A stretch of DNA of 64,000 bases. Origin: Halostella pelagica (GTDB lineage Archaea; Halobacteriota; Halobacteria; Halobacteriales; Natronoarchaeaceae). Below, piece by piece: positions 12,107 through 37,565 of this stretch (positions are counted from its first letter, which is position 1; each line of letters starts with the position of its first letter). Location of the stretch: assembly GCA_005954745.1 (NCBI GenBank), contig CP040678.1:434001-498000 (forward strand). Direction: 5' to 3'. Below the pieces are notes generated by a model, which did not search any database, had not been told where the DNA came from, and was given only the letters and a program-made list of their open reading frames with translations. The position numbers were made by a program, and so were the translations under genes.

Positions 12107-12462
12107 AGTTACACAACCCCCCTGCGACGGCCACCCCGGACCGTCACATGGATCGCATTACCCGCTACGTACCTATTACTACGTAAATGTATGCCAAATT
12201 GTAATGCAAAAAGAAAGATTGGAAATTCTAAATAAGTCGGATCAGATATGAAATCGCACAGTCAGATCGCGGTCGCCGTCCGAACGAAGACGGACAGTGC
12301 CCTGCCTTGGTCATAGCGCATCGGCTCCGCGCCGCGTCTACTGTAACTGACGGCCGCTTCTCCGACACGTCGATGACGTACAACCTGAATAGGATACCAC
12401 TCAAACTCTGTTGGGTTAGAACAAGCACAATTGTTTTACGTGCTACTGTACTTGCTTTACGC
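12107..12462. other. AT-richer intergenic region carrying the cbiT promoter
   Basis: 356 bp without a supported gene. The stretch 12140-12260 is clearly lower in GC than its surroundings and contains cattac (12156-12161) and its reverse complement gtaatg (12201-12206), flanking tacgtacc/tacgta segments. Its role is not evident. The right end (12400-12462) carries the CAA-N6-TTG element and the promoter of cbiT. Confidence 0.5.
12404..12440 (+). promoter_or_regulatory. Putative cobalamin-regulon operator/promoter of cbiTLFG (site 1)
   Basis: Contains gttgggttagaacaagcaca followed by attgtttta. The core inverted repeat AACAA-N6-TTGTT is 12420-12435. The distance from the TTG to the cbiT ATG (12463) is 29 bp, so the trailing tttta sits at the TATA-box position for a leaderless mRNA. 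The same element occurs at four other cobalamin promoters in this window. The bound regulator is not identified. Confidence 0.6.
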
Positions 12463-13041
12463 ATGCCACGGGTGGAGCTACCCCACGACGCGAAAGCCGG
12501 GCCGACGAAATCCGAGGTGCGGGCCGTGTTGCTCGGAAAGTTGGCGCTCGGACCGTCCGACCACTTCGTCGAAGTCGGGTCCTGTACCGGGGCCGTGACG
12601 ATAGAGGCGGCACGACGCGCCGGCCGCGTGACGGCGATAGAACGCAAGGAATCGCGCGCGGAGACGACGCGGAAGAACCTCGCCGCGAACGGCGTCGACG
12701 GCGTTGAGGTCCGCATCGCCGAAGCGCCCGAGGGACTGCCGGACGACGCGGACGCGCTCTTTCTCGGCGGGAGTCGCAACTACGAGGCCGTCCTCGACCA
12801 CGCCGTCGAGGCGGGGGTCGAGACGGTCGTGATGAACGTCTCGCGGCTCGAAGTCGCGGGCGCGGCGACCGAAGCGTTCCGCGAGCGCGACCTGCTCGAC
12901 GACGTCGTCCAGTTCCAGGTGAGCCACGGCTACGAACTCGCCGGCGCGACGAGTTTCGATTCGGAGAACCCCGTGTACATGCTCGTCGGCGGAGCGAGCG
13001 ACGGACCCGTTGAGGGCGACGCGGGAGGTGCCGGCAGATGA
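12463..13041 (+). CDS. cbiT: Cobalt-precorrin-6B (C15) methyltransferase/decarboxylase subunit
   Basis: 192 aa class I SAM methyltransferase. The SAM-binding motif is HFVEVGSCTGAVTIEAAR, followed by the acidic loop AIERKESRAE. CbiT methylates C15 and decarboxylates the C12 acetate of cobalt-precorrin-6B/7. First gene of a tight operon cbiT-cbiL-cbiF-cbiG; its stop overlaps the cbiL ATG (ATGA at 13038-13041). The ATG at 12463 fits the family N-terminus (MPRVELPHDAKAGPTKSEVR) and a leaderless start below the shared regulatory element. Upstream in-frame codons are rejected for those reasons. Confidence 0.93.
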   Translation: MPRVELPHDAKAGPTKSEVRAVLLGKLALGPSDHFVEVGSCTGAVTIEAARRAGRVTAIERKESRAETTRKNLAANGVDGVEVRIAEAPEGLPDDADALFLGGSRNYEAVLDHAVEAGVETVVMNVSRLEVAGAATEAFRERDLLDDVVQFQVSHGYELAGATSFDSENPVYMLVGGASDGPVEGDAGGAGR

Positions 13042-13814
13042 CCCTCTACGGTGTCGGTCTCGGCCCCGGCGACGCCGAACTGATCACGGTCAAGGGCAAG
13101 CGAGCGCTCGAAGCGGCGGATGTCGTCTATTCGCCCGGCCGCCTCTCCCGGACGGTCGCCACCGAACACGTCCCCGAGGAGCGCATCGGCGACCTCGACT
13201 TCCCGATGACCCGCGACGAGGAGAAACTCCGGCGGGCCTGGAAGGAGGCCGCCGCCGAGATAGCGCCCGAAGCGAGAGAGAGCGACGCCGCCTTCGTGAC
13301 GCTCGGCGACCCGAACGTCTACTCCACGTTCGGCCACCTGCGCCGGACGATGGACCATTTCCACCCCGATGTCGACCTCGAACTCGTCCCCGGCGTCAGC
13401 GCGGTCACCGCGTTCACGACGGCGCTCGGCGTCGAGATAGACGCCGGTGCGGGTCTGGCGCTCCGCGAAGCCGCACAGGGGGCGTCGCCGACCGGACCGG
13501 ACCGGATGGTTCTGTTCAAAGTCACTGACGCACCGGCCACTCACGAGGGACTCGCCGACGCGGGGTACGACGTGACGTACGGCCGCCGGCTCTACATGGA
13601 GCAGGGCGAGACGCTCGTGACGGAGGACCCGGCGGAGATCGCCGAACGCGACTACTACACGCTTGCCTACGCGGAGAAGGCCGACCTGTCGGTCGACCGC
13701 GCAACGGCGAAGTTCGGCCACAGCGAGGAACGCGCGGAGGCGGCGGAACACGGGGACGAGGTCGAGCCCCGTAGGTCGGACCGCCGCGACGAGGGGGTGC
13801 CGTCCGATGACTAA
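13038..13814 (+). CDS. cbiL: Cobalt-factor-II C20-methyltransferase
   Basis: 258 aa tetrapyrrole (SUMT-like) methylase. Motifs: GVGLGPGDAELIT at the N-terminus (SAM-binding P-loop region), VTLGDPNVYSTFGH, and LVPGVSAVTAF. CbiL adds the C20 methyl group. A strong Shine-Dalgarno sequence GGAGGTG at 13024-13030 lies 7 bp before the ATG, which overlaps the cbiT stop. The C-terminal 25 residues are an acidic/basic low-complexity tail. Overlaps cbiF by 8 bp, indicating translational coupling. Confidence 0.93.
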   Translation: MTLYGVGLGPGDAELITVKGKRALEAADVVYSPGRLSRTVATEHVPEERIGDLDFPMTRDEEKLRRAWKEAAAEIAPEARESDAAFVTLGDPNVYSTFGHLRRTMDHFHPDVDLELVPGVSAVTAFTTALGVEIDAGAGLALREAAQGASPTGPDRMVLFKVTDAPATHEGLADAGYDVTYGRRLYMEQGETLVTEDPAEIAERDYYTLAYAEKADLSVDRATAKFGHSEERAEAAEHGDEVEPRRSDRRDEGVPSDD

Positions 13815-14691
13815 CGATTCCACTGACCCGCAGGCGGCGATAGACGAAGCGAGCGAACAGCGCCAGCGCGAGCGCGACCCACGCGTGTACGAACACACTG
13901 CGGGCGACGTACAGGAGGGGATCCCGTTCATCGGCGCGGGTCCGGGCGACCCCGGCCTGCTGACCGTGACCGGGAAGGAACTGGTCGAGGACGCGGACCT
14001 CGTGGTCCACGCGGGGTCGCTGGTCAACAGCGAACTACTCGACGAGTACTGCGCCGACGCCGAACTGGTCAACTCCGTCGGCAAGGACCTCGAAGAGCTG
14101 ATCCCGCTGATGCGGGACGCCTACCAGGACGACCGTGAAGTCGTGCGCCTGCACAGCGGCGACCCCGCCATCTACGGCGCGGCGCTGGAGCAGATGGACG
14201 CGCTGGAACACGAGGGCGTCCCCACCTACTTCGTCCCCGGCGTCACCTCGGCGTTCGCCGCGAGCGCCACCTTGCGGACGCAACTGACGCTGAACGAGAC
14301 GGCGAATCACGTCGCGTTCACCCGGCCGCAGGGGAAGACGCTGGACCCCGAGGACGACCACATCACGGAGTTCGCCGAGATGGGCGACGTGACGACGTGC
14401 ATCTACCTCGGCACGCACGCCGTCGCGGACACGATGGACCGCCTGCTCGACGAGGGCGTCGACCCCGACACGCCGGTGACGGTAGTTTATCACGCCTCGT
14501 GGCCCGACGAGGACATCGTCGAGGGAACCGTCGCGACCATCGGCGACCGCCTGGAGGACGCGGGCTACCGCGCTTCCGCGATGGTGATAATCGGGCAGGC
14601 CGGAACGGGTGCGGGGTACGAGCGCTCGTACCTCTACGGCGACTGGGCGAACCGCGGACAGAACGACGGCGAAACCGAGGCTGATGACTGA
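13807..14691 (+). CDS. cbiF: Cobalt-precorrin-4 C11-methyltransferase
   Basis: 294 aa. After an acidic N-terminal extension of about 40 residues come FIGAGPGDPGLLTVTGKEL, VRLHSGDPAIYGA, and VPGVTSAFAASATL, the CbiF/CobM signatures. It methylates C11 of cobalt-precorrin-4. Start at the ATG 13807 inside the end of cbiL; a GAGGGGGTG stretch about 8 bp upstream can act as ribosome-binding site. CbiG follows after 2 bp. Confidence 0.94.
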   Translation: MTNDSTDPQAAIDEASEQRQRERDPRVYEHTAGDVQEGIPFIGAGPGDPGLLTVTGKELVEDADLVVHAGSLVNSELLDEYCADAELVNSVGKDLEELIPLMRDAYQDDREVVRLHSGDPAIYGAALEQMDALEHEGVPTYFVPGVTSAFAASATLRTQLTLNETANHVAFTRPQGKTLDPEDDHITEFAEMGDVTTCIYLGTHAVADTMDRLLDEGVDPDTPVTVVYHASWPDEDIVEGTVATIGDRLEDAGYRASAMVIIGQAGTGAGYERSYLYGDWANRGQNDGETEADD

Positions 14692-14693
14692 CA

Positions 14694-15686: not shown

Positions 15687-15751
15687 CGGCGATACTGGCT
15701 GCTTTCTCCCCGTTATTCACCGGCTGGAACCGGTCGGCGGACCGCTGGGTG

Positions 15752-16219
15752 TTACGAGTGAGTCTCGGTACGTATCCCGTCGACGACCTGCAGAACGGCT
15801 CCGAGTCCGGTGCAAATGAGGCCGGCCGGAACGAACACCAGGCCCATGCTGAACGCGCTACTGATCCGCAGTACGTAGTAGCTTCCGGTGAGGCTCCAGA
15901 GTATCGATAACGCGTACTGGGAGACCAGCAGGAACACGGCACTGCCACCGACAGCGGCTCCGAGCGTAAGCAGTCGCAGCGGCCATTCTCTCGGGGTGCA
16001 CGTTTGAACGACGAGATACAGCAGTCCCGCCTCGGCGAGCGCGAGGACTCCAGCCACCAGATAGATCATGACGAAGATACCGGCGAGACCGGCCGCGAAC
16101 CCGTCTCCGGGCGGGTTTTCGGGGATGGTCGCGAACGTGACCCCGGCAGTGACGAGGGCGAACACGCCGAGAACGGCGGTTCCGATCGCGACGATGCGGG
16201 GCGTTGGAGGGAATCGCAT
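15752..16219 (-). CDS. Four-helix membrane protein
   Basis: 155 aa from the ATG at 16219 (MRFPPTPRIVAIGTAVLGVF). Four hydrophobic segments, short polar tails, no recognised motif. In the same frame upstream (78 codons) the sequence is non-hydrophobic and overlaps the DCC gene, so the internal ATG is preferred. Convergent with cbiG, 65 bp apart. It belongs to the non-cobalamin block that splits the cbi cluster. Confidence 0.65.
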   Translation of the reverse strand: MRFPPTPRIVAIGTAVLGVFALVTAGVTFATIPENPPGDGFAAGLAGIFVMIYLVAGVLALAEAGLLYLVVQTCTPREWPLRLLTLGAAVGGSAVFLLVSQYALSILWSLTGSYYVLRISSAFSMGLVFVPAGLICTGLGAVLQVVDGIRTETHS

Positions 16220-16862: not shown

Positions 16863-18410
16863 ATGGATTCACGCACGCCCTCCCTCCCCGCGAACGACCT
16901 TGACCGTATTTCACACGCCCTCGCCCGGCGGTTCGAGGTCGACCTCCGGGCGCTCGCCGCGTTCCGAGTCGCGGTCGGAACGCTGGTTATCGTCGATCTA
17001 GTGCTCCGGTCTCGCGACCTCGTCGCCTTCTACACTGACGCCGGCGTCCTTCCGCGAAGCGCTCTGTTCGCTGACTACGGAACCCTCTACTCGCTTCACG
17101 CCCTCTCCGGAGCGGCGTGGGCGCAGGTCCTCCTGTTCGTCCTCGCGGGCACGGTCGCCCTCGCGATGGTCGTCGGATACCGGACCCGGGTTGCGACCGC
17201 CGTCTCCTGGGTGCTGCTCGTCTCGCTGCACCTTCGCAATCCGCTGGTTCTCAACGCCGGCGATACCCTGTTGCGAATGCTTCTCTTCTGGGGAACATTT
17301 CTGCCCCTGGGCGAGCGGTGGGCGGTCGACGCGGACCGAAACGACCGAGAACGGTCAGTGGTGGCTTCTATCGCGACAGTCGCGCTGTTGCTTCAGGTCG
17401 TTCTCATGTACGCGACGAACGCTGTCCACAAGACCCGGAGCGACGCGTGGACGAGCGGGAAAGCGGTCGCCTACATCTTCCAGGCCGACCACTTCACCAT
17501 CCTGCTTGGCGACGTTATCGCGGAGCATCACGCGCTGCTGGAACTGTTCACATACCTCTGGATGGCGATGATCGTCGCCTCGCCGTTGCTCCTCTTGTGT
17601 ACCGGTATTCCGCGGGCGGTGCTTGCAGCCGCGTTCGCCGGCATGCATCTCGGGATGCTCGTCACGCTCCGTATCGACCTATTCCCGCTGATCGCCGTCG
17701 CTGGGCTCGTCCCGTTCTATCCGCCTGTCGTCTGGAACGCGGTGGAGTCTCTGGCGGTCCGGACGGGAGCGGTTTCCTGGTTCCGCCGCCGGTCGGCGTC
17801 AGTCGAGTTGTCCACCGCAGTGTCTACCCCCGTCGAGTTCGTACGGGACTGCTCCGCTGTTTCGGTCCTCTCGGACGGGGTCACTCGGGCGTACGGAGCG
17901 TGTTTGACGGTCGTCCCGTTCGTCTTTCTCGTCCTCGTCGTCACGTCGAACGCCGCGGCGGTCGGCTACGCGACGATGCCGGACCACGGCGACCGGGCGT
18001 TAGACGCCATCCAGGGCGACCAGAACTGGCGCATGTTCGCGCCGAACCCGACGCGGACGACGAAGTGGTTTGCGGCCCCCGGAACGCTGGAGAACGGGAC
18101 GGAGGTCGACGTTCTCCACCGGTCGAGAGTGGACCTCGACCGGCCGGCGAGAGCGCAGGACGCGTATCCCACCTCGCGGTGGCGAAAGTACCTCTCTACC
18201 GTCCAGTCGGCCGACAACGAACGCCACCGTTCGTATCTCAGTAACTACCTCTGTAACCGCTGGAACGGGCATCACGACACCGAAGTCCGCGACGTTTCCC
18301 TCTACTTTCTGTACGAACAGTCCGACCCGTACGACGGGTCCACGTCTGGCGGGAACGTCTCCATACAGGAGTACGACTGTTCGGGCGAGTTCGTTCAGAG
18401 CGACGGCTAG
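16863..18410 (+). CDS. HTTM-domain membrane protein (vitamin-K-carboxylase-like)
   Basis: 515 aa. Several membrane helices in the N-terminal half, with the HTTM hallmarks LRALAAFRVAVGTLVIVDLV, YSLHALSG and HLRNPLVLNAGDTLLR. A periplasm-like soluble C-terminal part (about 380-515) contains the DQNWRMFAPNP motif common to these proteins. Homology is to the membrane part of gamma-glutamyl carboxylase; activity is unproven. Start chosen at the ATG 16863; upstream aaaacttattta (16811-16822) is the probable TATA region. Pairs with the divergent DCC gene. Confidence 0.82.
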   Translation: MDSRTPSLPANDLDRISHALARRFEVDLRALAAFRVAVGTLVIVDLVLRSRDLVAFYTDAGVLPRSALFADYGTLYSLHALSGAAWAQVLLFVLAGTVALAMVVGYRTRVATAVSWVLLVSLHLRNPLVLNAGDTLLRMLLFWGTFLPLGERWAVDADRNDRERSVVASIATVALLLQVVLMYATNAVHKTRSDAWTSGKAVAYIFQADHFTILLGDVIAEHHALLELFTYLWMAMIVASPLLLLCTGIPRAVLAAAFAGMHLGMLVTLRIDLFPLIAVAGLVPFYPPVVWNAVESLAVRTGAVSWFRRRSASVELSTAVSTPVEFVRDCSAVSVLSDGVTRAYGACLTVVPFVFLVLVVTSNAAAVGYATMPDHGDRALDAIQGDQNWRMFAPNPTRTTKWFAAPGTLENGTEVDVLHRSRVDLDRPARAQDAYPTSRWRKYLSTVQSADNERHRSYLSNYLCNRWNGHHDTEVRDVSLYFLYEQSDPYDGSTSGGNVSIQEYDCSGEFVQSDG

Positions 18411-18449
18411 TCTCTCCGTTCGCAGTTCACTCTCACTGGCACTCCATCA

Positions 18450-18487
18450 AAACAGAGTTGCGCTAAAACAAGCAAAATTGTTTTATG
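18450..18487 (+). promoter_or_regulatory. Putative cobalamin-regulon operator/promoter of the cbiH1 operon (site 2)
   Basis: Contains gttgcgctaaaacaagcaaa followed by attgtttta. The inverted repeat AACAA-N6-TTGTT is 18467-18482. TTG lies 29 bp before an ATG at 18510, the same spacing as at cbiT. The similarity to the cbiT site extends about 40 bp including the upstream actc...caaa stretch. Regulator unknown. Confidence 0.6.
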
Positions 18488-18509: not shown

Positions 18510-18569
18510 ATGCGACACAGCAACGGTACGCTCGCGCAAGCGGCGGTCGGGAGGTCTCCACGGGCATGA
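18510..18569 (+). CDS. Possible 19-aa leader peptide upstream of cbiH1
   Basis: An ATG at 18510 opens a 19-codon frame (MRHSNGTLAQAAVGRSPRA) whose TGA overlaps the cbiH1 ATG (ATGA at 18566-18569). The ATG sits exactly where the leaderless cbiT start sits relative to the shared promoter element. The frame contains the cbiH1 Shine-Dalgarno GGAGGT (18550-18555), so ribosomes reading it would reach the cbiH1 start. No homology is recognised. It may be a translated leader for coupling or attenuation, or simply a 5' leader. Confidence 0.4.
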   Translation: MRHSNGTLAQAAVGRSPRA

Positions 18570-19429
18570 CCGAGGAGTCGACTGCGGCCGCTTCCGACGA
18601 CCTCGGCAAGGTCTACGTCGTCGGTATCGGCCCCGGCCTGCCGGGCGACATGACCCAGCGGGCGAAAGACGTCATCCAGAGCGCCGACTGCGTCATCGCC
18701 TCCAATCTCTATCAGGAGTTCCTCCGCAAGGACGGGACGCTCCCGCCGGAGACGGCGACCGACGGCGGGACGGCGAGCGCCTCCGCCGGCGCGCGCTCGG
18801 ACCAGGAGGTGATCCGCTCCACGATGGGCCGCCAGATCGAACTCGCCCGGGAGGCGTTCGACCGCGTCCGCGACGGCGAGACGGTCGCGCACGTCTCCGG
18901 CGGGGACCCAAACGTGTACGGAAAGTCCGACCTCCTGTTCCTGATGGCTCAGGAAGACGAGGTCGAGGACGTTCCTATCGAAATCGTCCCCGGCGTCACC
19001 GCGGCACTCGGGGGCGCGGCCAACCTCGGCGCGCCGCTGTCGAACGACTTCTGTACCATCTCGCTGTCGGACAAGTGGCGCGGCTGGGACGAGATAGAGG
19101 AGAAGCTACGGGCTGCCGCCATCTCCGGGTTCGTCATCGTCCTGTACAACTGCTGGCGCAACTACGAGCGGGCGGTCGACATCGTCCGCGAGGAGCGCGC
19201 CGACGACGCCGCGGTCGCCATCGTCAACGACGCCGGCCGCGGCGACGCCGGCCGCAACGGCGAGAGCCAGACGATCACGACGCTCGGCGAGGCCACGGAC
19301 CACGACGACAAGGTCGCCGGGATGGGCACCTCGCTCGTCATCGGCAACCACGAGACGGAGGTCTGGAGCAACGACTACGAGCAGTTCCTCGTCACCCCGC
19401 GCGGCGGGCGTGACGTCGACGACTTCTGA
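18566..19429 (+). CDS. cbiH: Cobalt-factor-III / precorrin-3B C17-methyltransferase, copy 1
   Basis: 287 aa SUMT-like methylase. VYVVGIGPGLPGDMTQRAKDV at the N-terminus, HVSGGDPNVYGKSDLL, IVPGVTAALGGAANLGAPL, SDKWRGWDEIEE and FVIVLYNCW match CbiH/CobJ. It methylates C17 with ring contraction. A variable insert near 60-80 is Ala/Ser-rich. Shine-Dalgarno GGAGGT at 18550-18555. It is followed after 3 bp by a second, divergent CbiH paralogue; haloarchaea commonly carry two. Confidence 0.92.
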   Translation: MTEESTAAASDDLGKVYVVGIGPGLPGDMTQRAKDVIQSADCVIASNLYQEFLRKDGTLPPETATDGGTASASAGARSDQEVIRSTMGRQIELAREAFDRVRDGETVAHVSGGDPNVYGKSDLLFLMAQEDEVEDVPIEIVPGVTAALGGAANLGAPLSNDFCTISLSDKWRGWDEIEEKLRAAAISGFVIVLYNCWRNYERAVDIVREERADDAAVAIVNDAGRGDAGRNGESQTITTLGEATDHDDKVAGMGTSLVIGNHETEVWSNDYEQFLVTPRGGRDVDDF

Positions 19430-19432
19430 ACC

Positions 19433-20392: not shown

Positions 20393-20655
20393 TGTACCGA
20401 ATCACGATCGACAAGGACGCCTGCGACGGCATCTTCGCCTGCCTGACGAGGGACCCGCGGTTCGTCGAGGACGACGACGGCCTCGCGACCGTGGACCCCG
20501 CGGCCGACCCAGTTCCCCCTGAAGGGTCCGACGACGGCACGATCCGCGAGGAGGACGGCAAGATAGTCGCGGAGTTCGACGACGACCGCGCCGACGAGGC
20601 CCGCGAGGCCGCCGCGGCGTGTCCCCCGAACGCGATCACGGTGGAAGATATCTAA
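20392..20655 (+). CDS. Single-cluster [3Fe-4S]-type ferredoxin
   Basis: 87 aa, MYRITIDKDACDGIFACLTR. Cysteines C11, C17 and C77 (C-x5-C ... CP) match the [3Fe-4S] ferredoxins of the actinobacterial P450-partner type rather than the 4Fe-4S CxxCxxC pattern. The start overlaps the cbiH stop by one base (TGATG) and the stop overlaps the next ATG (TAATG), so it is translated within the cobalamin operon. It probably feeds electrons to a corrin-ring step or to cobalt reduction; the acceptor is not shown by the sequence. Confidence 0.85.
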   Translation: MYRITIDKDACDGIFACLTRDPRFVEDDDGLATVDPAADPVPPEGSDDGTIREEDGKIVAEFDDDRADEAREAAAACPPNAITVEDI

Positions 20656-21311
20656 TGTCACTGAGCATCGGCAAGCCAGACGACATGCTCGCGGCCCACC
20701 CCGAGACGGCGTACTTCTGGGGGCGGGTCGCGGGCGACGGCGACCTCGAATCGGACTGCGTGACCGTGCGGACCAACGACGAGACGGCGGCCCGACGCCT
20801 CGCCGCCGTCGCCGGCGCGGAGCAGGTCGACCGCCGCATCCTCGAGCGCGAGTACGCCCACGACACGTCGATCACCCGCACCGAGGACGAGTACGCGGTG
20901 CAGGTGTTCGGCGACCTGGCGGACCGCGCCGGCGCGGCGTTGGGCCTGCCGGTCGACGGCGAGCCCGGCGGTTACCGCTTCGGCGCGTTCGCGGACCACG
21001 ACCGACAGCTCCTGCGCGGCCTGCTCGAAGGCTGCGGGACGGTGTGTTTCAAGTCCGACGACGGGGCGGTAGGAGTGTCGTTCGTCCATGAGGACCGCCG
21101 CCTGCTGGAGACGGTCCAGTCGCTGCTCGACGACGCGCCGGTGGACGCGCCGTACGGCGACCCGGCGGAGACGTCGTCTGGCCACTGGTTCGGCGTGGAC
21201 GACGACGCCGTTCCCGATCTCGGCCCGTGGCTGTACGACGGGAGCGAGGACACCGGCCTGTTCGCGCCGAGCCGGCGGCGGAAACTGCGGCGGAGCCTCG
21301 ACCGGATATGA
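20655..21311 (+). CDS. LAGLIDADG-fold protein embedded in the cobalamin operon, probably catalytically inactive
   Basis: 218 aa. Two LAGLIDADG-like helices: residues 21-29 (FWGRVAGDG in AYFWGRVAGDGDL) and 120-128 (LRGLLEGCG), each followed by the expected beta/alpha pattern (VTVRTNDETAARRLAAV; VSFVHEDRRLLETVQSLL). The C-terminal end WLYDGSEDTGLF...RRRKLRRSL matches the usual LYxxAxxYLxRKxxKF tail. The first catalytic Asp is kept (D28) and the second is Cys (C127), so DNA cleavage is unlikely. Start and stop overlap both neighbours (TAATG, ATGA), so it is an integral operon member. Such proteins are sometimes just annotated 'cobalamin biosynthesis protein'. Fold assignment is from motif reading. 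Confidence 0.7.
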   Translation: MSLSIGKPDDMLAAHPETAYFWGRVAGDGDLESDCVTVRTNDETAARRLAAVAGAEQVDRRILEREYAHDTSITRTEDEYAVQVFGDLADRAGAALGLPVDGEPGGYRFGAFADHDRQLLRGLLEGCGTVCFKSDDGAVGVSFVHEDRRLLETVQSLLDDAPVDAPYGDPAETSSGHWFGVDDDAVPDLGPWLYDGSEDTGLFAPSRRRKLRRSLDRI

Positions 21312-24708: not shown

Positions 24709-24878
24709 TCCGGAGTCCTCCCGCGACACGCTCTCGACGCCGATCCTCCGGTAGTCGCCCAATTATTGTTGGAGTTTCAAAATAAAACCAGGTATTTCAC
24801 TTCCGATGATATCTCTGCATATCCGAAGTTAATTCAGCCCAGAGTACCGACGCGACGAGACGCTCCGTCCTGCGCGCT
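24709..24878. other. AT-richer spacer after the propeller gene
   Basis: Contains the AT-rich block 24760-24835 (for example caattattgttgg at 24760-24772 and aataaaacca at 24781). It reads as a promoter region for the degenerate gene that follows. No intact gene is seen. Confidence 0.4.
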
Positions 24879-27475: not shown

Positions 27476-27660
27476 CAGTGGCAGGTGACGCCGGCGGCGT
27501 GCCGGAAGTTGTGCATCGCGTCGTGGGCCATCGGGTCCTGCAGGAACATGAGTGTGAAGCCGAGCGCGGCCGCGAGGCCGATCGCCAGCGCCGCTCGCGT
27601 CGGCGTCAGTTCGGTGCCCGCGCGTTCGATGCGGTCGTGAACGGTGTCTGCGGTCTCCAT
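27475..27660 (-). CDS. cbtB: Cobalt transporter subunit CbtB
   Basis: 61 aa, one membrane helix (about 22-40) and a C-terminal metal motif with H46, H50, H54, C60 and H61 (PMAHDAMHNFRHAAGVTCH), the hallmark of CbtB. It likely binds Co2+ and hands it to CbtA. First gene of the cbtB-cbtA-2Fe-2S operon. The shared cobalamin operator-like element lies 21-36 bp upstream. Confidence 0.92.
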   Translation of the reverse strand: METADTVHDRIERAGTELTPTRAALAIGLAAALGFTLMFLQDPMAHDAMHNFRHAAGVTCH

Positions 27661-27680
27661 TGAAACTCTACTTTCAATAG

Positions 27681-27696
27681 AACAAATATGATTGTA
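27681..27696 (-). promoter_or_regulatory. Putative cobalamin-regulon operator of cbtBA (site 3)
   Basis: aacaaatatgattgta on the + strand: CAA-N6-TTG core, preceded by atag as at cbiT (ttagaacaa). Located 21-36 bp upstream of the cbtB ATG. Same inverted repeat as at the cbiT and cbiH1 promoters, less perfect in the outer arm (TTGTA). Confidence 0.5.
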
Positions 27697-27777
27697 AAAC
27701 TTCCGCCTCTCGTCGCGTCCGTCTCGGCCGTCGGTCCCTTCGACCGTCGATCACTCCCGGGCCCGGCGGACACCCGG

Positions 27778-29952
27778 CTACTCTCGCGCCCGGCCGACCG
27801 CCCGCTCGACGCGCTCGGGGGTGAGCGCGGAGAGCGGCACCCGTTCGCCGCCGGTAGCCTCGACAACGTCCCCGGTCAGGCCGGTACGGTCGTCCCCGCC
27901 GGCGTCCACGGCGACGACGTGTGCGCCCCGGTCGGCGAGCGCCTCGGCGGCCGCTCGCGTCTCCGCAGTGGGGTTCTCGCTCGCGTTCGCCCGCCCGTCG
28001 GTGACGAGCACGACGACGCTCGTCCCGGGGTCGGCCCGCGCCACGACTTCGCTCGTCGTCCGCAGGCCCGCCGGAAGCGGCGTCCGGTCGCCGACGGGCA
28101 GTTCCTTCAGGTGCCGCGCCGCCAGCGTCACGCTGTCCGTCGGCGGCAGGAGCACCTCGGCGTCGTCGCCCGCGAACGCCACGACGGCGACGTCGTCGCG
28201 CTGCTCGTAGGCGTCCTGCAACAGTTCCAGCGCGACACCCTTCGCCGTCCGCATCGGCCCGCGCATCGACGCGCTCGCGTCCAGCGCGAACACGACTAAG
28301 GCGTTGCTCTCGCCCGAGCGCACCGACTGCCGGAGGTCCCGCGACTCGACGCTGTCCGACCCGCGCGCCGCGGCCGCCCTGACGGACGCGGCGGCGTCGA
28401 CGCTCCCCGATTCAGCTCGTTCGGTGCGGACTCGTGCTCCCTCGTTGTCCGCGCTGGGGGTCAGGTCGGCGCGGGAGCCGGTGCCGCCGGCGCCCGTCGC
28501 CGCTGTCGCCGCCTCCGTTTCCACGCCCGGCGCGACGGCGTCGCCGACCTCAGCCCGGGTCTGACCGGGGATCAGCGGTGTGCCGTCCACCCCGTCGTCA
28601 CCGTCGGGGCGGTTCTCGTCGTTCCCGTTCTCCGGGTCGCCCGCTTCGCCATCGTCAGTATCGCCGCGGCACCCGTCGCGCTCGTCCGGACTGTCGCCGT
28701 CGCTCCCGCCGGCTGGTCGCGGTTGGGGTGCGTCGCCTGCGCCGCCGTCCTGGCCACCGGTATCGTCGCTCTCGCCGGGTTCGCCCGATCCGCCGTCCGA
28801 CCCGTCTCCGTCCTCAGCCGGTTCGTCACTCTCTCCGTCGGCGTTGCCGGAACCGCCGGCCTCGTCGCCGTCCGCGCCGCTCTCGCCGTCGCCATCGTCA
28901 CTGTCTCTACCGTCTGCCGTGTCGTCGCCCGCGTTCTCCCCTTCGTCGAAGTGGTCGTCCACCACGTCCTCCGGGTCGGGCGCGTCCTCGAACGGTTTCG
29001 ACTGAAGCCGGTGGGGCAGGGTCAACTCCGCGGCGCGGCGTACGTCGCCCTCGATGACGCTCGCGCGGCCGGAAAGCGCCGCGATGGTCCGAGCGGCCCG
29101 TGCGGTGGCGATATCGCCGCGGTGGCCGTCGACGCCGGCATCCCGGCAGAGCTCTGCGATCTCCGCCGCGAACTCGCGGGGGAGCGTCACGTCGTCTATC
29201 AGGTCGCGGGCGGAAAGCAGCGACTCGCGGTGGTCGGCGGTGGCGTCGTCAGCGGCCGCCCACGAGTCGTTCAGCGCGCGGTCGATGATCTCCACGCGGT
29301 CGTCGACGTCCTCGCAGCCGGTCACCGTCGCCTGGAGCGCGAAGCGGTCGCGTAGCTGGGGTCGCAGATCACCCTCCTCCGGGTTCATCGTCCCGACGAG
29401 GGTGAACTCCGCGGGGTGGGCGACACTGACACCGTCACGTTCGACGCGGTTGACGCCGCTCGCCGCGGCGTCGAGCAGAACGTCCACGAGATGGTCGTCG
29501 AGTAGGTTCACCTCGTCGACGTAGAGGATGCCGCGGTTTGCCCGGGCGAGCAGGCCGGGATCGAACTCGGGGTCGCCGTCCAGCGCGTCCGCGACCGACA
29601 GCGTGCCGACGACGCGCTCTCGCGTCGCGCCCAGCGGCAGGGTGACGAGCGGGACCGGGCGCGTCTCGACCGGCGGGTCCGCGCGCTCGCGGCAGTCCGC
29701 GCACTGCCGGTCGGGGTCGTCCGGCGGACAGCCGTAGGGACAGTCCGCGACGGCACGCTGTTCCGGGAGGAGGTCGGCCAGCGCCCGCACCGCGGTGGAC
29801 TTGGCGGTCCCCTTCTCGCCGCGAACGAGCAGGCCGTCTATCGCGTCGTTCGCGCCGACGACGAGCAGCGCCTCCTTCAGCGCCGCCTGCCCGACGACCG
29901 CCCCGATCGGCACGGCCGTCGACAGCTTTTTGCCGCTCGCTAAATCAACCAT
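27778..29952 (-). CDS. chlID: ChlI/ChlD-type AAA+ and VWA subunit of cobaltochelatase
   Basis: 724 aa fusion. AAA+ domain (about 15-330) with Walker A GEKGTAKST (45-53) and Walker B GILYVDEVNLL; a four-Cys insert C71, C75, C84, C87 (CPYGC ... CADC); an acidic Asp/Gly/Glu linker (about 335-480); and a C-terminal VWA domain with MIDAS DASASMRG and VLVTDGRANAS. It works as the ATP-driven partner of CobN in Co2+ insertion, as Mg chelatase I and D subunits do with H. Divergent from cobN with only 35 bp between the start codons. Confidence 0.92.
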   Translation of the reverse strand: MVDLASGKKLSTAVPIGAVVGQAALKEALLVVGANDAIDGLLVRGEKGTAKSTAVRALADLLPEQRAVADCPYGCPPDDPDRQCADCRERADPPVETRPVPLVTLPLGATRERVVGTLSVADALDGDPEFDPGLLARANRGILYVDEVNLLDDHLVDVLLDAAASGVNRVERDGVSVAHPAEFTLVGTMNPEEGDLRPQLRDRFALQATVTGCEDVDDRVEIIDRALNDSWAAADDATADHRESLLSARDLIDDVTLPREFAAEIAELCRDAGVDGHRGDIATARAARTIAALSGRASVIEGDVRRAAELTLPHRLQSKPFEDAPDPEDVVDDHFDEGENAGDDTADGRDSDDGDGESGADGDEAGGSGNADGESDEPAEDGDGSDGGSGEPGESDDTGGQDGGAGDAPQPRPAGGSDGDSPDERDGCRGDTDDGEAGDPENGNDENRPDGDDGVDGTPLIPGQTRAEVGDAVAPGVETEAATAATGAGGTGSRADLTPSADNEGARVRTERAESGSVDAAASVRAAAARGSDSVESRDLRQSVRSGESNALVVFALDASASMRGPMRTAKGVALELLQDAYEQRDDVAVVAFAGDDAEVLLPPTDSVTLAARHLKELPVGDRTPLPAGLRTTSEVVARADPGTSVVVLVTDGRANASENPTAETRAAAEALADRGAHVVAVDAGGDDRTGLTGDVVEATGGERVPLSALTPERVERAVGRARE

Positions 29953-29964
29953 ACTTGTATTAGT
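29940..29964. promoter_or_regulatory. Putative cobalamin-regulon operator between chlID and cobN (site 4)
   Basis: gctaaatcaaccatacttgt then attag (+ strand): CAA (29946-29948), N6, TTG (29955-29957), aligned base for base with gctaaaacaa...ttgtttta at cbiH1. TTG is 30 bp before the cobN ATG, matching the 29 bp at cbiT and cbiH1. The site also overlaps the chlID start codon (29950-29952), so one protein could control both genes. Confidence 0.55.
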
Positions 29965-29987: not shown

Positions 29988-32900
29988 ATGCCTACCATCG
30001 CCATCTACACCGCGACCGAGAACGAGCTCGGGGCCGTCCAGCGCGCCGCCGAGCGGATAGACGCGGATCTGGTCGTGCGCTCGGAGAGCGACCTGGACGA
30101 CGAACCCGACGTGGACGAGTTCGTCGAGGCCGCCGCCGACGCCACGGCCGCCGTGTTCTGGCTCCACGGCGCAGAGGACAGCATGCCCGGCTACGACCGC
30201 GCCGTTTCCCGTCTGGCGGAGGCCGGTACGCCGCTGGTCGTGAAAGCCACCGGCGACGCGTTCGCGTTCGAAGACACCTCCGCCGCCGCCGAGCAGCGTG
30301 AGGCGGTCTATGAATACCTCGACCGCGGCGGCGCGGTCAACGTCGAGAACTGCGTGCGCTACCTCGTCGACGAGTTCGCCGACGCGGAGCGGGAGTACGA
30401 CGAACCCGTCGCGCTTCCGACCGAGGGCGTCTACCACCCGGACCACCCCGGGGCCGAGTACGAAGAACTGCGCGCCTCGCTCGACCCCGACAGTCCCACG
30501 GTCGCCGTCTGGTTCTACGAGTCGCACTGGACCCACGAGAACACGCGGTACGTCGACGCGCTGGTCCGCCACGTCGAGGCGCAGGGCGCGGACGCGCTCC
30601 CTGTGTTTTGTAACCCGGCGACCGACACGGAAGAGCAGGAAGACGCCGAGTGGGTCACCGACGAGTGGCTCACGGACGACGAGGGCGACCCGGTCGTCGA
30701 CGCCGTCCTCTCCTCCTTTATGTTCTCGCTGTCGATGGACGAGCGGGGCCGCAGCGCCGCCGACGAGGGCGATTCCGCCGAGGACGTGTTCCTCGACCGC
30801 CTCGGCGTCCCCGTCCTGCAGACGATCACGACGATGCGGTCGCGCTCGCGCTACCAGTCCTCGGACACGGGCGTGATGGGCTTCGAACTCGCGCTGTCGG
30901 TCGCGCTGCCGGAGTTCGACGGCAACGTCATCACCCACCCGATCAGTGGGAAGGAGCGCACCGACGACGACGCCGGTATCGGCTCCGCACCGAAACAGCA
31001 CTTCCCCATCGAGGACCGGGTCGACCACGCCGCCCGCCTCGCCGTCAACTGGGCGCACCTACGCCACGTACCCAACGACGAGAAACGGGTCGCCGTCGTC
31101 CTGCACAACTACCCGCCGAGCGACGACGGCATCGGCACCGCGTTCGGCCTCGACAGCCCCGAGAGCACGGTGAACCTGCTCGACGAACTGGGCGCGCGAG
31201 GGTACGACCTCGGAGGCCGTCGGCCAGAGTCCGGCCAGTCGCTCGTCGAGACGCTCACCTCGCAACTGACGCTGGACGACCGCTGGGTCGCGCCGGAAGA
31301 CGTGCGCGAGCGCTCGGTCGACGTGGTGTCGCCGGAGCAGTACGCCGACTGGTTCGCCGAAACCGACGAGCGATTCAGAGAGAACGTGGTCGAAGAGTGG
31401 GGCGAGGCCCCCGACCGCCCGTTCGCCATCCCGGGCGTGGAGTTCGGCAACGTCCTCGTGACGGTTCAGCCCCCGCGCGGGTTCGGCATGGACCCGTCGA
31501 AGGTGTACCACGACTCGGACCTCCAACCGCCCCACGACTACGTCGCGTTCTACTCGTGGCTCCGGAACGAGTTCGACGCCGACGGCGTCGTCCACCTCGG
31601 CACGCACGGCAGTCTAGAGTGGCTCCCGGGCAAGACCGTCGGTTTGAACGGCGAGAGTGCACCCGACCAGCTTATCGACGACCTACCGAACGTCTACCCG
31701 TACATCGTCAACAATCCCGGTGAGGGGACGCAGGCCAAGCGCCGCTCCTACGCCGCCGTCGTCGACTACCTGACGCCGGTGATGTCGAACGCTGGGACGT
31801 ACGACGAGATAGCCGAACTGGAGGAACTCGCCGACCGCTACCGAGAGGCCGGGATGGAGGACGCTCGCACCGACGACGGCGAGCATCTCGAACAGCTGAT
31901 CCGGGAGACGGTGGACGAACTCGACCTCGCGGTCGAGTTGGGTATCGCCGGAGAGATAGACGAGAAGGCCGACGTGCGCGGGCCGGACGAGGCGGGAACG
32001 ACGCTGGCGGAGGGCGACGTGGACGGGGACGAGGCGGACATCGACGAACTCGTCGAGCGCGTCCACGAGTACGTCACCGACGTGAAGACGACGCAGATCC
32101 GCCTCGGCCTGCACACGATGAGCGAACCGCCCGCTGACGACCGTCTCGTGGAGTATCTTGTCGCGCTCACCCGGCTCGAAAACCCGGGCGCGCCGAGCCT
32201 CCGCGAGAGCGTCGCCGGCGTCCTCGGCGTCGACTACCAGACGATGCTCGACGAACCGGGCGCGTACGACGAGACCCTCGGGATGACCTACGCCGAGGCC
32301 GCCGACGAGGTGTACGAGACGAGCGTCGACCTCGTGGAGACGCTCGCGGAGTACGAGTTCGACCTGCCGGCGAACGAGCAGGAGGCGGGACCGGATGACG
32401 AGGTGAACGCCAACCTGCTCGTCGTCGACATCGAACCGCTCGGTGACGGTCGCGCCAAGCGCGGCGCACACGACGACCTACGGGAGGCGCTCACGTACAT
32501 CTGCGAGGAGGCGCAACCGCGTGTCCAGGGGTCCGAGGACGAGATCCCCCGCACCGCAGACGCGCTGGCCGGCGAGTACGTCCCGCCGGGCGGCAGCGGT
32601 GCGCCGACCCGCGGCGGCGTCGACCTCCTGCCGACGGCGCGGAACTTCTACACGCTCGACCCGCGGAAGGTGCCAGCGAAGAGCGCGTGGCAGGTCGGCA
32701 GCGAGGTCGCCGACGGCGTCGCCGAGCGCCATCACGCTGAGGAGGGCGAGTACCCCGAGGAGATCGGCGTCGTCGCGTGGGGCACGCCGACCGTCCGCAC
32801 CCGCGGCGAAACCATCGCGCAGGTGCTCGCGCTGATGGGCGTCGAACCGGTGTGGACAGATGCCGGTCGGGTCGACGACGTGGAACCGATTCCGCTTTCC

Positions 32901-33881
32901 GAACTGGACCGCCCGCGAATAGACGTGACGACGCGCGTCTCCGGGCTGTTCCGTGATGCCTTCCCTGCCGCGGCGGGCGTCATCCACGACGCGGTGGAGG
33001 CGGTGGTCGACCTCGACGAACCGAACGAGATGAACTACGTGAAAAAGCACGTCGAGGAGGAGGCCGAGCGCCTGACCGAAGAGCGCGGTCTGGACGAGAG
33101 CGACGCCCGGGCGGCCGCCACGCACCGCGTGTTCACGACCCGTCCCGGCGGCTACGGCGCGGGGACGAACAAGGCGGTCGACGAGGGCAACTGGGACGAC
33201 CGCTCCGATCTGGCAGAGGTGTACGTCCAGTGGGGCGGCTACGCCATGGGCTCTCGCGGCAAGGTGTCGGAGGCCCACGACGCCTTCGAGCGTCGCCTCG
33301 GCAGCGTCGAGGCGACCGTGAAGATAGAGGACACCGCCGAGCAGGACGAGTTCGACTCCTCGGACTGGTACGCCTTTCACGGCGGGTTCATCTCCGCCGT
33401 CGCGGAGACGGCGGGCGAGGAACCTGCCTCCTACGTCGGCGACTCCTCGGACCCGGACAACGTCGACGTGTACACCAACGAGGAGAAGGTCCGCAAGGCG
33501 ATGCGCGCCCGCGTCCTCAACCCGCAGTGGCTCGATTCGATGGAGGAACACGACTACAAGGGCGCGGGCGACCTCTCGACCACCGTCGACGTCGTCCTCG
33601 GCTGGGACGCGACGACCGGCGTCGTCAGCGATACGCTCTGGGAGGACGTGGCCGAGAAGTACGCCTTCGACGCCGACCGGCAGGACTGGCTCCGCGACGT
33701 GAACCCGTGGGCGCTGGAGAGCATCACCGACACCCTGCTGGAGGCGATCGACCGCGACCTGTGGGACGCCGACGACGAGACGGAGGAGCGCCTGCGCGAC
33801 CTGAACCTGCGGGTCGACGGCGACCTGGAAGCGCGTGCCAGTGGGACGGACTCCACGGAGGTGGCAAGCGATGACGACTGA
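29988..33881 (+). CDS. cobN: Cobaltochelatase CobN subunit
   Basis: 1297 aa, the large porphyrin-binding chelatase subunit (CobN/ChlH/BchH family). Recognisable blocks include GVYHPDHPGAEY, PVFCNPATDTEEQ, NYPPSDDGIGTAFGLDSPES, VHLGTHGSLEWLPGK, YPYIVNNPGEGTQAKRRSYA, GLHTMSEPP, RPGGYGAGTNKAVDEGNW and YVQWGGYAMG. It holds the corrinoid while ChlID supplies ATP-driven remodelling for Co2+ insertion. First gene of cobN-cbiC-cbiE. The coding end overlaps cbiC by 11 bp. Acidic insertions (about 635-690) are typical of halophiles. Confidence 0.95.
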   Translation: MPTIAIYTATENELGAVQRAAERIDADLVVRSESDLDDEPDVDEFVEAAADATAAVFWLHGAEDSMPGYDRAVSRLAEAGTPLVVKATGDAFAFEDTSAAAEQREAVYEYLDRGGAVNVENCVRYLVDEFADAEREYDEPVALPTEGVYHPDHPGAEYEELRASLDPDSPTVAVWFYESHWTHENTRYVDALVRHVEAQGADALPVFCNPATDTEEQEDAEWVTDEWLTDDEGDPVVDAVLSSFMFSLSMDERGRSAADEGDSAEDVFLDRLGVPVLQTITTMRSRSRYQSSDTGVMGFELALSVALPEFDGNVITHPISGKERTDDDAGIGSAPKQHFPIEDRVDHAARLAVNWAHLRHVPNDEKRVAVVLHNYPPSDDGIGTAFGLDSPESTVNLLDELGARGYDLGGRRPESGQSLVETLTSQLTLDDRWVAPEDVRERSVDVVSPEQYADWFAETDERFRENVVEEWGEAPDRPFAIPGVEFGNVLVTVQPPRGFGMDPSKVYHDSDLQPPHDYVAFYSWLRNEFDADGVVHLGTHGSLEWLPGKTVGLNGESAPDQLIDDLPNVYPYIVNNPGEGTQAKRRSYAAVVDYLTPVMSNAGTYDEIAELEELADRYREAGMEDARTDDGEHLEQLIRETVDELDLAVELGIAGEIDEKADVRGPDEAGTTLAEGDVDGDEADIDELVERVHEYVTDVKTTQIRLGLHTMSEPPADDRLVEYLVALTRLENPGAPSLRESVAGVLGVDYQTMLDEPGAYDETLGMTYAEAADEVYETSVDLVETLAEYEFDLPANEQEAGPDDEVNANLLVVDIEPLGDGRAKRGAHDDLREALTYICEEAQPRVQGSEDEIPRTADALAGEYVPPGGSGAPTRGGVDLLPTARNFYTLDPRKVPAKSAWQVGSEVADGVAERHHAEEGEYPEEIGVVAWGTPTVRTRGETIAQVLALMGVEPVWTDAGRVDDVEPIPLSELDRPRIDVTTRVSGLFRDAFPAAAGVIHDAVEAVVDLDEPNEMNYVKKHVEEEAERLTEERGLDESDARAAATHRVFTTRPGGYGAGTNKAVDEGNWDDRSDLAEVYVQWGGYAMGSRGKVSEAHDAFERRLGSVEATVKIEDTAEQDEFDSSDWYAFHGGFISAVAETAGEEPASYVGDSSDPDNVDVYTNEEKVRKAMRARVLNPQWLDSMEEHDYKGAGDLSTTVDVVLGWDATTGVVSDTLWEDVAEKYAFDADRQDWLRDVNPWALESITDTLLEAIDRDLWDADDETEERLRDLNLRVDGDLEARASGTDSTEVASDDD

Positions 33882-35357: not shown

Positions 35358-35471
35358 GTACGACCCGCCCCCGCGACGGGCCTGCGACTCGCGTCGCCTT
35401 TCGCGGTCCCCGACATGACTCCTCGCCCACAGTTGCCTAGGACTACCCGTGTCCGCGGGCTATCATCGCAC

Positions 35472-35855
35472 ATGGTACAAGAGGACATCGGACAGGCGAC
35501 TATCGTGTACGAGGGACCGGACGGCGACGCCGTCGAGCGGACGGTCGACAACGAACACGTGGCGTACTTTCAGGACCACTGGATCATCAAGATAGACGAC
35601 GAGGAGACGGAAGAGGAAGAGCGGATGGAGGGGAGAGACACGGTGCGGCGGATCCCCGCACAGCGCGTCTACTACGTCGAGCGGTCCGTCGAGGAGTTCG
35701 AGGAGGAGGTCAAGACGATCAGGGACCAGGTGCAGTCGATCACGGAAGACCTCCGCTCGAAACTGATCGGCGGGGGGCAGTCCAGTCAGCAGAGCGACCG
35801 GGAACCCGAGCGCATCGAAGTCGAGCGCGGCGATACCGAGTCGGGACGGAAGTAG
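35472..35855 (+). CDS. Acidic hypothetical protein with a coiled-coil C-terminus
   Basis: 127 aa from the ATG at 35472 (MVQEDIGQATIVYEGPDG). The N-terminal half is beta-strand-like (YFQDHWIIKIDDEE ... QRVYYVERS); residues 75-105 form a charged helix (VEEFEEEVKTIRDQVQSITE). The tail is hydrophilic. No family recognised. Upstream in-frame codons (19) lack homology and are not favoured. Confidence 0.6.
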   Translation: MVQEDIGQATIVYEGPDGDAVERTVDNEHVAYFQDHWIIKIDDEETEEEERMEGRDTVRRIPAQRVYYVERSVEEFEEEVKTIRDQVQSITEDLRSKLIGGGQSSQQSDREPERIEVERGDTESGRK

Positions 35856-35952
35856 GTGACGCCGACGGACGACCAGACCCGGCGCTATCGACGCCCGTGG
35901 ACGACGAGCGGCGAGCGCTCAGCGACCAACGCGGACCGAACGGTCGGGTCGG

Positions 35953-36483
35953 CTACTCGTACGGATGGCTCTCGTCCCCGTCCGGGACGGTGTACGCCTC
36001 GATCCACGGCGGGCAGTCGCGGCCAGTCCACTCGAACAGGCCGCGTTTCTCGTTGGCGTAGTAGAGGCGGTATGCGTCCACGTAGTCGGTGGCCTGCCAC
36101 TCGCCGGTGACCTGCGGCGGGTCGGACGCCTCCTCGCTCGGCCAGTCGAGTCCGGCGACAGTCTCCTCGTCCAGCGACTCGACCGTCGCCCACGACCCGT
36201 GTTCTTTCTCGGGCGGGTGGTCGTACCGATGACGCCACTCCTCGTGAGCGAGGCGGACGTACTCGCGGAGGCGGTTCCAGTTCGCGAGCGAGTCCGCGGT
36301 CCAGACCGTAAGCGGGTGGTCCGGGTGCGTGAAATAGAGGTCGTCGGACCCTGGGTAACCGTTGAGTTGGACTGCCGTCGTCAGCACCATCGAACACTCG
36401 AAGACGCTGCTCAGCACGTGTTTGTCCACGAGGTACTCGACGGCGCGAGCGGTGTCGCGGTCCAGCCAGAACGCGTTGACCAC
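35953..36483 (-). CDS. Hypothetical protein of the phage-type DKHV/Pyr_excise-like group
   Basis: 176 aa. MVNAFWLDRDTARAVEYLVD then KHVLSSVFECSMVLTTA, with THPDHPLTVW, NWNRLREYVRLAHEEWRHRY and EKEHGSW, resembles a protein group common in phages and haloarchaea (opening D-x-D, DKHV, Glu, HP...W, NW...E..RY). Some members are annotated as pyrimidine-dimer glycosylase-like. The function is not established, and the call rests on motif order. Confidence 0.55.
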   Translation of the reverse strand: MVNAFWLDRDTARAVEYLVDKHVLSSVFECSMVLTTAVQLNGYPGSDDLYFTHPDHPLTVWTADSLANWNRLREYVRLAHEEWRHRYDHPPEKEHGSWATVESLDEETVAGLDWPSEEASDPPQVTGEWQATDYVDAYRLYYANEKRGLFEWTGRDCPPWIEAYTVPDGDESHPYE

Positions 36484-36758
36484 ACGGGCGGTAGGCGACA
36501 GCGACGATTATGTCCGTCGCCACCTCTCGCCGTTCCGAGCGATTCCGGGGCCTCGCGTCCGTCGCTGTACGCTCGGGACGCTTCCGGTGGACTGGACGGT
36601 CGCGACGACGATCCGGCTATGTTGACGGGCCCTCCCGCGCGGAAGACCTGCGCCGCGGCATGACTGTCGAGATTGTTCCGGACGAGTGAGACGTGCTTCC
36701 GGCCGTCGAGGGGCGCTCCGGTCCCTCGGCGGGGCCGCGGCGACGTAGCGTCCGCTCC

Positions 36759-37526
36759 TCAGTCGCCGCGGCCGTCGGTCGCCATCGGCCGGGCGTTCAT
36801 CGCCAGCGTCGCCTCGAACGACGACGGGTGCGAGCCGCCGGCCATGACGCGTTGCGTGTCGACCGCCGCGCGCATTGCGTCGGTCACGCCCTCGTGCGTC
36901 CCGAGCACGTCGGCGTAGGCGATGCCGCCGCGGTCGAGTTCCAGTTTCCGCGGGATCTCCTCCTCGGTCGCCCGCCCGCCGGTGAGAAACAGCGGCACTG
37001 CAACCGCGTCGTCGCCAGTGACGTTGTACCGGACACACTCCACGGCGGGATTTTGCAGCAGATAGCAGGTCTCCACCTCGTCGTAGGTGCCCCGATCCCT
37101 GAGACGCGAGGCGTGATGTTCGACGGTCTGTCGACCGTACGGGAGCGCGCTGTTACCCAACCCGACCAGAACGAGCGAGTCCGCGCGGGGGGAACGCGTG
37201 GCGGCGCGGTCGCAGATCGCTCCGGTGACGCCCGGACTGCGTCCGATCGGCTCGCAGTAGTGGACCTCTCCGGGGCAGTACGACAGCGCCGCCGGGATGT
37301 CGTCCGTCGTCTCGTAGGTGTGTGCGATCGTTACCGGCAACGCGTACACCGTCTCGGCCTCGATGTCGGTGAACTCGTCGGCCAGTTCGTGAACGGGGTC
37401 GTGTTCGTAGTAGGCGGTCCGGACCGAGTCGGCGATGTCGGACTCTCGGAGTCGCCGAGCATGGGTCCCGACCACGTCGCGGGCTTGGGTCGTGTCTCGG
37501 GCGATGAGAAGGAGCGCGTCTGTCAT
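36759..37526 (-). CDS. cbiX: Second CbiX-like chelatase protein with altered active site
   Basis: 255 aa from the ATG at 37526. Two CbiX-type domains: the first opens LLLIARDTTQARDVV where active CbiX has GHGSR, and keeps the second His (PVTIAHTYETTDDIP); the second opens LVLVGLGNSALPYGR and has PLFLTGGRATEEEIP without His. The catalytic His pair is thus mostly lost, so it may bind rather than metallate tetrapyrrole or cobalt, or act as a partner of another protein. A regulatory element shared with cbiT/cbiH1/cobN lies directly upstream. Confidence 0.8.
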   Translation of the reverse strand: MTDALLLIARDTTQARDVVGTHARRLRESDIADSVRTAYYEHDPVHELADEFTDIEAETVYALPVTIAHTYETTDDIPAALSYCPGEVHYCEPIGRSPGVTGAICDRAATRSPRADSLVLVGLGNSALPYGRQTVEHHASRLRDRGTYDEVETCYLLQNPAVECVRYNVTGDDAVAVPLFLTGGRATEEEIPRKLELDRGGIAYADVLGTHEGVTDAMRAAVDTQRVMAGGSHPSSFEATLAMNARPMATDGRGD

Positions 37527-37535
37527 TGTACTTTG

Positions 37536-37565
37536 TTCAACTGAGTTTGCTTTAGCGCAACTCAG
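37536..37565 (-). promoter_or_regulatory. Putative cobalamin-regulon operator of the second cbiX (site 5)
   Basis: On the minus strand: gttgcgctaaagcaaactca then gttgaa, matching gttgcgctaaaacaag of the cbiH1 site at 15 of 16 aligned positions. CAA-N6-TTG core at 37538-37549. It also forms a hairpin-like inverted repeat ctgagtt/aactcag (37541-37547, 37559-37565). It lies between a ttatttaa TATA-like box (near 37594) and the ATG at 37526, i.e. over the likely transcription start. Confidence 0.55.

Follow-up and report, generated by a model that had tools for sequence, protein, structure and literature searches.

What controls the cobalamin (vitamin B12) genes of haloarchaea, and to what does that control respond? 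The question is raised by a 64,000-nucleotide stretch of the Halostella pelagica genome (3.94 Mb in four contigs; C1:434001-498000, here called the window), in which a CAA-N6-TTG palindrome recurs at the promoters of genes for corrin synthesis, cobalt uptake and cobalt chelation. A sequence-only reading of the window had listed five such operator-like sites in the B12 region, and all five are present when the DNA is read directly. The element is very probably the operator of a haloarchaeal B12 regulon. A fuller reading adds a regulator, a winged-helix protein of MarR-like type that ends in a DUF7839 domain, and we give operator and regulator jointly a probability of about 60%. The operator is probably the mark of a B12-control system of archaea that had not been described before; no description of the element or of an archaeal B12 regulator or regulon was found in the literature searched, outside which most subscription journals lie.

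The exact inverted repeat AACAA-N6-TTGTT, reported earlier for the cbiT and cbiH1 copies, is confirmed at 12420 (cbiT) and at 18467, before a small open reading frame (mini-ORF) that precedes cbiH1. The other CAA-N6-TTG cores lie at 27683 (toward cbtB, minus strand), 29946 (chlID/cobN) and 37538 and 37558 (cbiX2, minus strand). The distance from TTG to the start codon is 29 bp at cbiT, 29 bp at the mini-ORF and 30 bp at cobN, as had been claimed, and it is 22 bp at cbtB and 11 bp at cbiX2.

The specificity of the element has been examined by genome-wide scans, run as pattern searches with mismatches allowed. The pattern TANANCAAN6TTGTNTTA with at most two mismatches gives seven matches at four places in the window, where 100 dinucleotide shuffles give 0.00. 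The extended motif GCTAAANCAA-N6-TTGTTTTA (GCTAAANCAAN6TTGTTTTA), with at most three mismatches, is found in the 3.94 Mb genome only at the cbiT, cbiH1 and chlID/cobN sites, while the reversed-pattern control gives one match per strand genome-wide. The bare core ACAA-N6-TTGT is near background, with 13 occurrences in the genome against 9 for the control, and this short core was rejected as an uninformative genome-wide marker. A lone CAA-N6-TTG also lies at window position 24760, away from any B12 promoter. Since the bare core is at background, specificity is carried by the AT-rich flanks and by position; the earlier claim that the motif is rare outside B12 genes stands for the extended form and fails for the core. 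The cbtB and cbiX2 copies match the TAAAA/TTTTA flanks weakly and count mainly through their presence at orthologous promoters.

Orthologous haloarchaeal loci were fetched by ChlID and by place, and their sites were scored out of 16, with thresholds of at least 12/16 for cbiT and at least 11/16 for cobN, cbtB and cbiX2. A site is present at 30 of the 32 cbiT promoters, and in 27 of those 30 the TTG lies 28-31 bp from the ATG. The expected conservation at orthologous promoters also extends to cobN (20/44), cbtB (8/18) and cbiX2 (11/15). The cobN sites lie 29-30 bp from the ATG and are accompanied by a second CAA-N6-TTG-like core at +20. Most operon-internal genes have a site in 0-1 of ~30-40 upstream regions, and shuffles give 0.00. 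Across the order, strong sites number 117 against 28 for the control in the 82 genomes that carry a cbi-operon marker gene, and 45 against 51 in the 113 genomes that do not. The element thus shows the dyad symmetry, orthologous conservation, fixed promoter position and rarity elsewhere of a transcription-factor operator.

The targets are not confined to the cbi cluster. The operator has been found upstream of cbiM, which encodes a cobalt energy-coupling factor (ECF) transporter, in three genera (genomes G011, G039 and G060), and the CbiM of G011 passes TIGR00123. One order-wide match in a genome without cbiG (G089) lies upstream of nrdR-nrdA, and the operator is present in 23 of 30 nrdR-nrdA upstream regions at about -130, against 0.20 in shuffles, and in 6 of 8 nrdA upstream regions. 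The NrdR and NrdA identities pass NCBIfam cut-offs. Many of the genomes with these nrd operators lack cbi genes. NrdA belongs to class I, the ribonucleotide reductases that work without B12; of the B12 enzymes of archaea, the most widespread is the B12-dependent class II ribonucleotide reductase (PMC2667541). Among 30 genomes searched, NrdA was found in six of the eight that lack cbiG (G006, G014, G040, G054, G057 and G065) and in two of the 22 that carry it (G081 and G189). Most of these 30 genomes have either class I ribonucleotide reductase or the cbi cluster, not both.

The presence of the operator at cbiM and at the class I nrd genes suggests that the signal is B12 status and not cobalt. 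In its composition, the full target set (cbi, chlID/cobN, cbtB, cbiX2, cbiM and class I nrd) is that of a B12 regulon. An earlier proposal of one regulator for cobalt uptake, chelation and corrin synthesis is supported in its targets and drew its scope too narrowly, as cbiM and class I nrd have now been added. One operator shared by corrin synthesis, cobalt import and a B12-independent isozyme is what B12 control is known to look like. Bacteria mostly sense B12 supply with riboswitches, and bacterial B12 regulons turn off corrin synthesis, cobalt and B12 transport and B12-independent isozymes, including class I ribonucleotide reductase, when B12 is present. The target logic of the bacterial cobalamin-riboswitch regulons is the same as that of the haloarchaeal operator. 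However, the riboswitches act on RNA and not on promoter occupancy, while the haloarchaeal element is a palindrome in the promoter DNA.

In most cases two dyads make up the operator, as a tandem CAA-N6-TTG-N8-CAA-N6-TTG that repeats every 20 bp. With at most two mismatches, CAAN6TTG-N8-CAAN6TTG is found four times in the window (12402, 18449, 27663 and 37538), against 0.12 expected. Exact CAA-N6-TTG pairs 20 bp apart lie at 12402 and 12422 and at 37538 and 37558, while the cbiH1 and cbtB sites have a degenerate second copy. In the orthologous promoters of six classes, the second copy is the strongest offset signal, over a background mean of ~1.4. Its mean score, out of 6, is 4.47 at -20 for cbiT (z 4.9), 4.0 at -20 for cbiX2, 3.95 at +20 for cobN, 4.33 at +21 for cbtB, 5.0 at +20 for nrdR (z 4.7) and 4.83 at +20 for nrdA (z 4.4). 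A period of 20 bp is about two helical turns, which would place two dimers on one face of the DNA.

The tandem operator of the cbiT-cbiL-cbiF-cbiG operon (12402..12438, plus strand) consists of CAAACTCTGTTG (12402-12413) and CAAGCACAATTG (12422-12433), 20 bp apart. It precedes cbiT, the first gene of the operon (12463..13041, plus strand), which was identified by blastp to orthologues and by its context in many genomes. Its right half, TTGTTTTA, occupies -32 to -25 from the ATG, the TATA position if the transcript is leaderless. The cbtB operator (27663..27699, minus strand) reads CAATCATATTTG-N8-AAAGTAGAGTTT on the minus strand, a 20-bp tandem whose second copy is degenerate, and lies ahead of cbtB (27478..27660, minus strand; orthologues found), which is followed by cbtA, both for cobalt uptake. 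The cbiX2 operator (37538..37569, minus strand), CAACCTGAGTTG-N8-CAAACTCAGTTG on the minus strand, is an exact tandem with the 20-bp period ~11 bp from the ATG of the CbiX-family chelatase gene cbiX2 (36757..37526, minus strand; Pfam PF01903). The operator shared by chlID and cobN (29941..29962, plus strand; TAAATCAACCATACTTGTATTA) spans both the expected TATA position of cobN (29988..33881, plus strand; cbiC and another tetrapyrrole methylase gene lie downstream) and the start codon of the chelatase subunit gene chlID (27778..29952, minus strand).

The usual cbi operon is split in the window, and an operator of its own precedes the downstream half. A gene with an HTTM domain (PF05090) and further sequence unrelated to B12 separate cbiG from cbiH1 (16863-18410, plus strand). 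The operator of the split-off cbiH1 operon (18449..18485, plus strand) has a degenerate first copy, AAAACAGAGTTG (18449-18460), followed by CAAGCAAAATTG (18469-18480). The 19-codon mini-ORF MRHSNGTLAQAAVGRSPRA (18510..18569, plus strand) begins 29 bp past the TTG and overlaps the start of cbiH1 (18566..19429, plus strand), a tetrapyrrole methylase gene (Pfam PF00590) that is followed by cbiH2, a ferredoxin gene, the gene of a LAGLIDADG-fold protein and cbiX1. Upstream regions of cbiH1 usually have no site; it is present in the window and in two Haloarcula loci whose cbiG-cbiH1 junction is interrupted. In all three, the part of the operon beyond the split is thus equipped with a separate operator. 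The Haloarcula loci have an ORF beginning MRHS at the position equivalent to the window mini-ORF, which also begins MRHS.

What binds the operator? The sequences suggest one regulator for all sites. The sequence-only reading had placed the regulator outside the window, which agrees with the candidate found here. The best candidate, judged by gene linkage, is the MarR-like winged-helix-turn-helix (wHTH) protein with a C-terminal DUF7839 domain (PF25211), whose helix-turn-helix (HTH) matches MarR_2/HTH_24 above the Pfam cut-offs. Of the 88 genomes with cbiG, 36 have a DUF7839-wHTH gene no more than 6 kb away from it (the G004 copy being a more divergent match), divergent from cbiT with the operator in between. 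In one genus (g16 of family f14), the operon reads operator-nrdA-nrdB-DUF7839 gene. In G034 and G179 the neighbour of the DUF7839 gene is a CobT-like gene, recognised as such by its resemblance to the L371 protein, which passes NF003371. The family is present in 193 of 195 genomes, and a tree separates a B12-linked clade (B2) from a clade (B1) that holds the copy of the window genome. That copy, the sole family member found there, is a paralogue with 51% identity (G000:C1:735330-736106), 240 kb outside the window. The HTH residues are nearly identical between clades B1 and B2, and in the recognition helix the linked clade and the paralogue of the window genome share Q41, A42, V43, S44 and Y46 without variation. 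The window-type paralogue was found in 20 of 20 tested genomes that bear the motif or cbi genes and have no linked-clade member.

The features computed here (how the sites are conserved, spaced and paired in tandem, which genes they precede, and which genes the regulator family is linked to) are consistent with a mechanism in which we infer binding, cooperativity, repression, B12 as the ligand and the role of the 51%-identical paralogue. The DUF7839 protein would bind as cooperating dimers on CAA-N6-TTG dyads 20 bp apart on the same DNA face, with the paralogue doing the regulator's job in the window genome. Leaderless transcripts make up 72% of the protein-coding ones in Haloferax volcanii, where TTWT serves as the TATA motif (PMC4983044). 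The site-to-ATG distances at cbiT, the cbiH1 mini-ORF and cobN fit leaderless transcripts, and with transcription starting at the ATG the cbiT site has its TTTTA at -29 to -25. The cbiT dyad then covers the B recognition element (BRE) and the TATA box, so that its occupancy should exclude TATA-binding protein (TBP) and transcription factor B (TFB). At the cbi, cobN and cbtB promoters, where the site lies over BRE/TATA, bound protein would block TBP/TFB and repress transcription. Corrin synthesis, cobalt uptake and chelation and class I ribonucleotide reductase would be off when B12, probably adenosylcobalamin, is plentiful and would be released when it is scarce.

Several observations weigh against this account. 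Related promoters are not independent samples, and part of the conservation of the chlID/cobN site could be coding, since the chlID start codon (CAT, 29950-29952) lies within it. At the nrd promoters, the TATA box lies downstream of the first dyad and directly next to the second, so blocking of TATA alone does not account for all promoters; repression at the nrd genes may work differently. The B1 member is unlinked to B12 genes in the window genome and most Haloarcula, and the operator was not found at the B1-clade promoters examined. Some B2 genes have unrelated neighbours, such as sulfur genes in Haloarcula pelagica and also in L202 and L204. A CAAANNTACTTG-like element precedes linked-clade genes also in genomes without cbi, where its flanks are asymmetric, and there this CAA-N6-TTG-like element at the B2 promoter may be core promoter only. 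Autoregulation of the DUF7839 gene was not counted because of these asymmetric flanks.

Two sets of side observations touch on these points. Within the operator, chlID (29941-29952, minus strand) uses a TTA leucine codon (GTT GAT TTA GCG), unusual at this GC content, and Haloarcula chlID encodes different residues over the same operator letters. This suggests that the DNA site constrains the chlID coding sequence. On a Haloarcula pelagica plasmid (L373; NZ_CP126162.1), a linked-clade DUF7839 gene lies beside DsrE/TusA/YeeE sulfur genes with no operator nearby, and the DUF7839 family may have other targets.

The strongest competing explanation accepts the operator and the B12 regulon, and has another factor, for example a cobalt-responsive regulator of the DtxR, NikR or ArsR type, bind the sites, with the DUF7839 gene as a mere neighbour. 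The window genome and Haloarcula have perfect operators and no linked DUF7839 gene, a further point against the DUF7839 protein, and most B12-cluster targets are also related to cobalt. However, B12 status explains an operator at the promoters of class I ribonucleotide reductase better than cobalt does, and linkage of the DUF7839 gene is seen with two kinds of target, cbiT and nrdAB. We regard this alternative as a real though minority possibility.

Much less probable is binding by the LAGLIDADG-fold protein of the cbi operon (20655-21311), a pseudo-twofold monomer that would read the conserved positions ~4-11 bp from the centre. The fold is confident (20655..21311, plus strand; AlphaFold2 (AF2) predicted local distance difference test (pLDDT) 86.8), and the leading Foldseek PDB matches are LAGLIDADG endonucleases/maturase and WhiA, the latter a precedent for a LAGLIDADG-fold transcription factor. 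The catalytic acid is lost, and the gene was found in 82 genomes, against 88 with cbiG. However, cbiT operators persist in four genomes (G010, G012, G039 and G184) in which a profile search finds no LAGLIDADG homologue, and the nrdR and nrdA operators occur in cbi-free genomes without the protein. These distributions largely refute it as the binder despite its attractive geometry and fold. The fixation of a dead homing-endonuclease fold in haloarchaeal cbi operons is an observation in its own right. In repeat 2 an invariant cysteine replaces the acid, and C131 and H69 are invariant. By operon position the protein appears to be HVO_B0055, which is listed as unassigned (PMC8305020). It is possibly a metal- or DNA-binding accessory.

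It is equally improbable that the conserved sequence is a lineage-specific core promoter (BRE and TATA) shared by descent. The right half, TTGTTTTA, does lie at TATA distance from the ATG, and the cobN sites share much flanking sequence. Neither TATA nor BRE needs the conserved left half or the second copy 20 bp away, however; elsewhere in the genome the extended motif hardly occurs, and split-off cbiH1 operons have their own copy.

The operator precedes nrdR-nrdA in many genomes, which could make it an NrdR box through which NrdR controls both nrd and cbi genes, and this is hardly credible. NrdR was found in only 31 of 195 genomes and, at E<=1e-20, not in the window genome (G000), which carries operators; NrdR was ruled out as the binder on this ground. 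The NrdR-box-like elements (ACCAGATATTG, CCCATATATGGG) are separate from the operator and lie downstream of the TATA box. NrdR boxes are likewise palindromic operators upstream of class I nrd operons, but they differ from the haloarchaeal operator in sequence and spacing and form separate boxes in the same promoters. At L330-L356, conserved ACCAGATATTGCGG-like, NrdR-box-like elements lie between operator and nrdR, downstream of the TATA box, and these nrdR promoters probably answer to two regulators. A cobalamin-riboswitch regulon was ruled out, as window positions 11000-40000 give no Rfam match to RF00174 and relatives at gathering score.

The DUF7839 candidate has partial parallels among known regulators. 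The HTH-ThiN thiamine repressors of haloarchaea, as far as they are described where cited (in PMC8305020), similarly join an HTH to a small C-terminal domain and control a vitamin pathway, but the candidate's C-terminal domain is DUF7839 and its putative targets are B12 and nrd genes. In CarH/AerR-type regulators, B12 status is read by a DNA-binding system, as is proposed here. Unlike these, the DUF7839 protein has no B12-binding Pfam domain detected among the best 25 families listed, and its targets would be the B12 pathway itself. A bolder form of the proposal can be held only tentatively and is, taken whole, rather doubtful: the DUF7839 wHTH proteins, which nearly all haloarchaea have, would be transcription factors of a new class that sense cobalamin directly and, via tandem operators spaced 20 bp apart, repress the synthesis of B12, the import of cobalt and the ribonucleotide reductase that works without B12, with the domesticated LAGLIDADG protein of the cbi operon as an accessory.

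The work supplies an operator with its architecture, a list of targets, the B12-independent ribonucleotide reductase among them, and a candidate regulator family present in nearly all Halobacteria. The operator is an annotation aid for unassigned genes of cobalamin clusters and for cobalt transporters, and archaeal B12 sensing becomes testable in genetically tractable haloarchaea.

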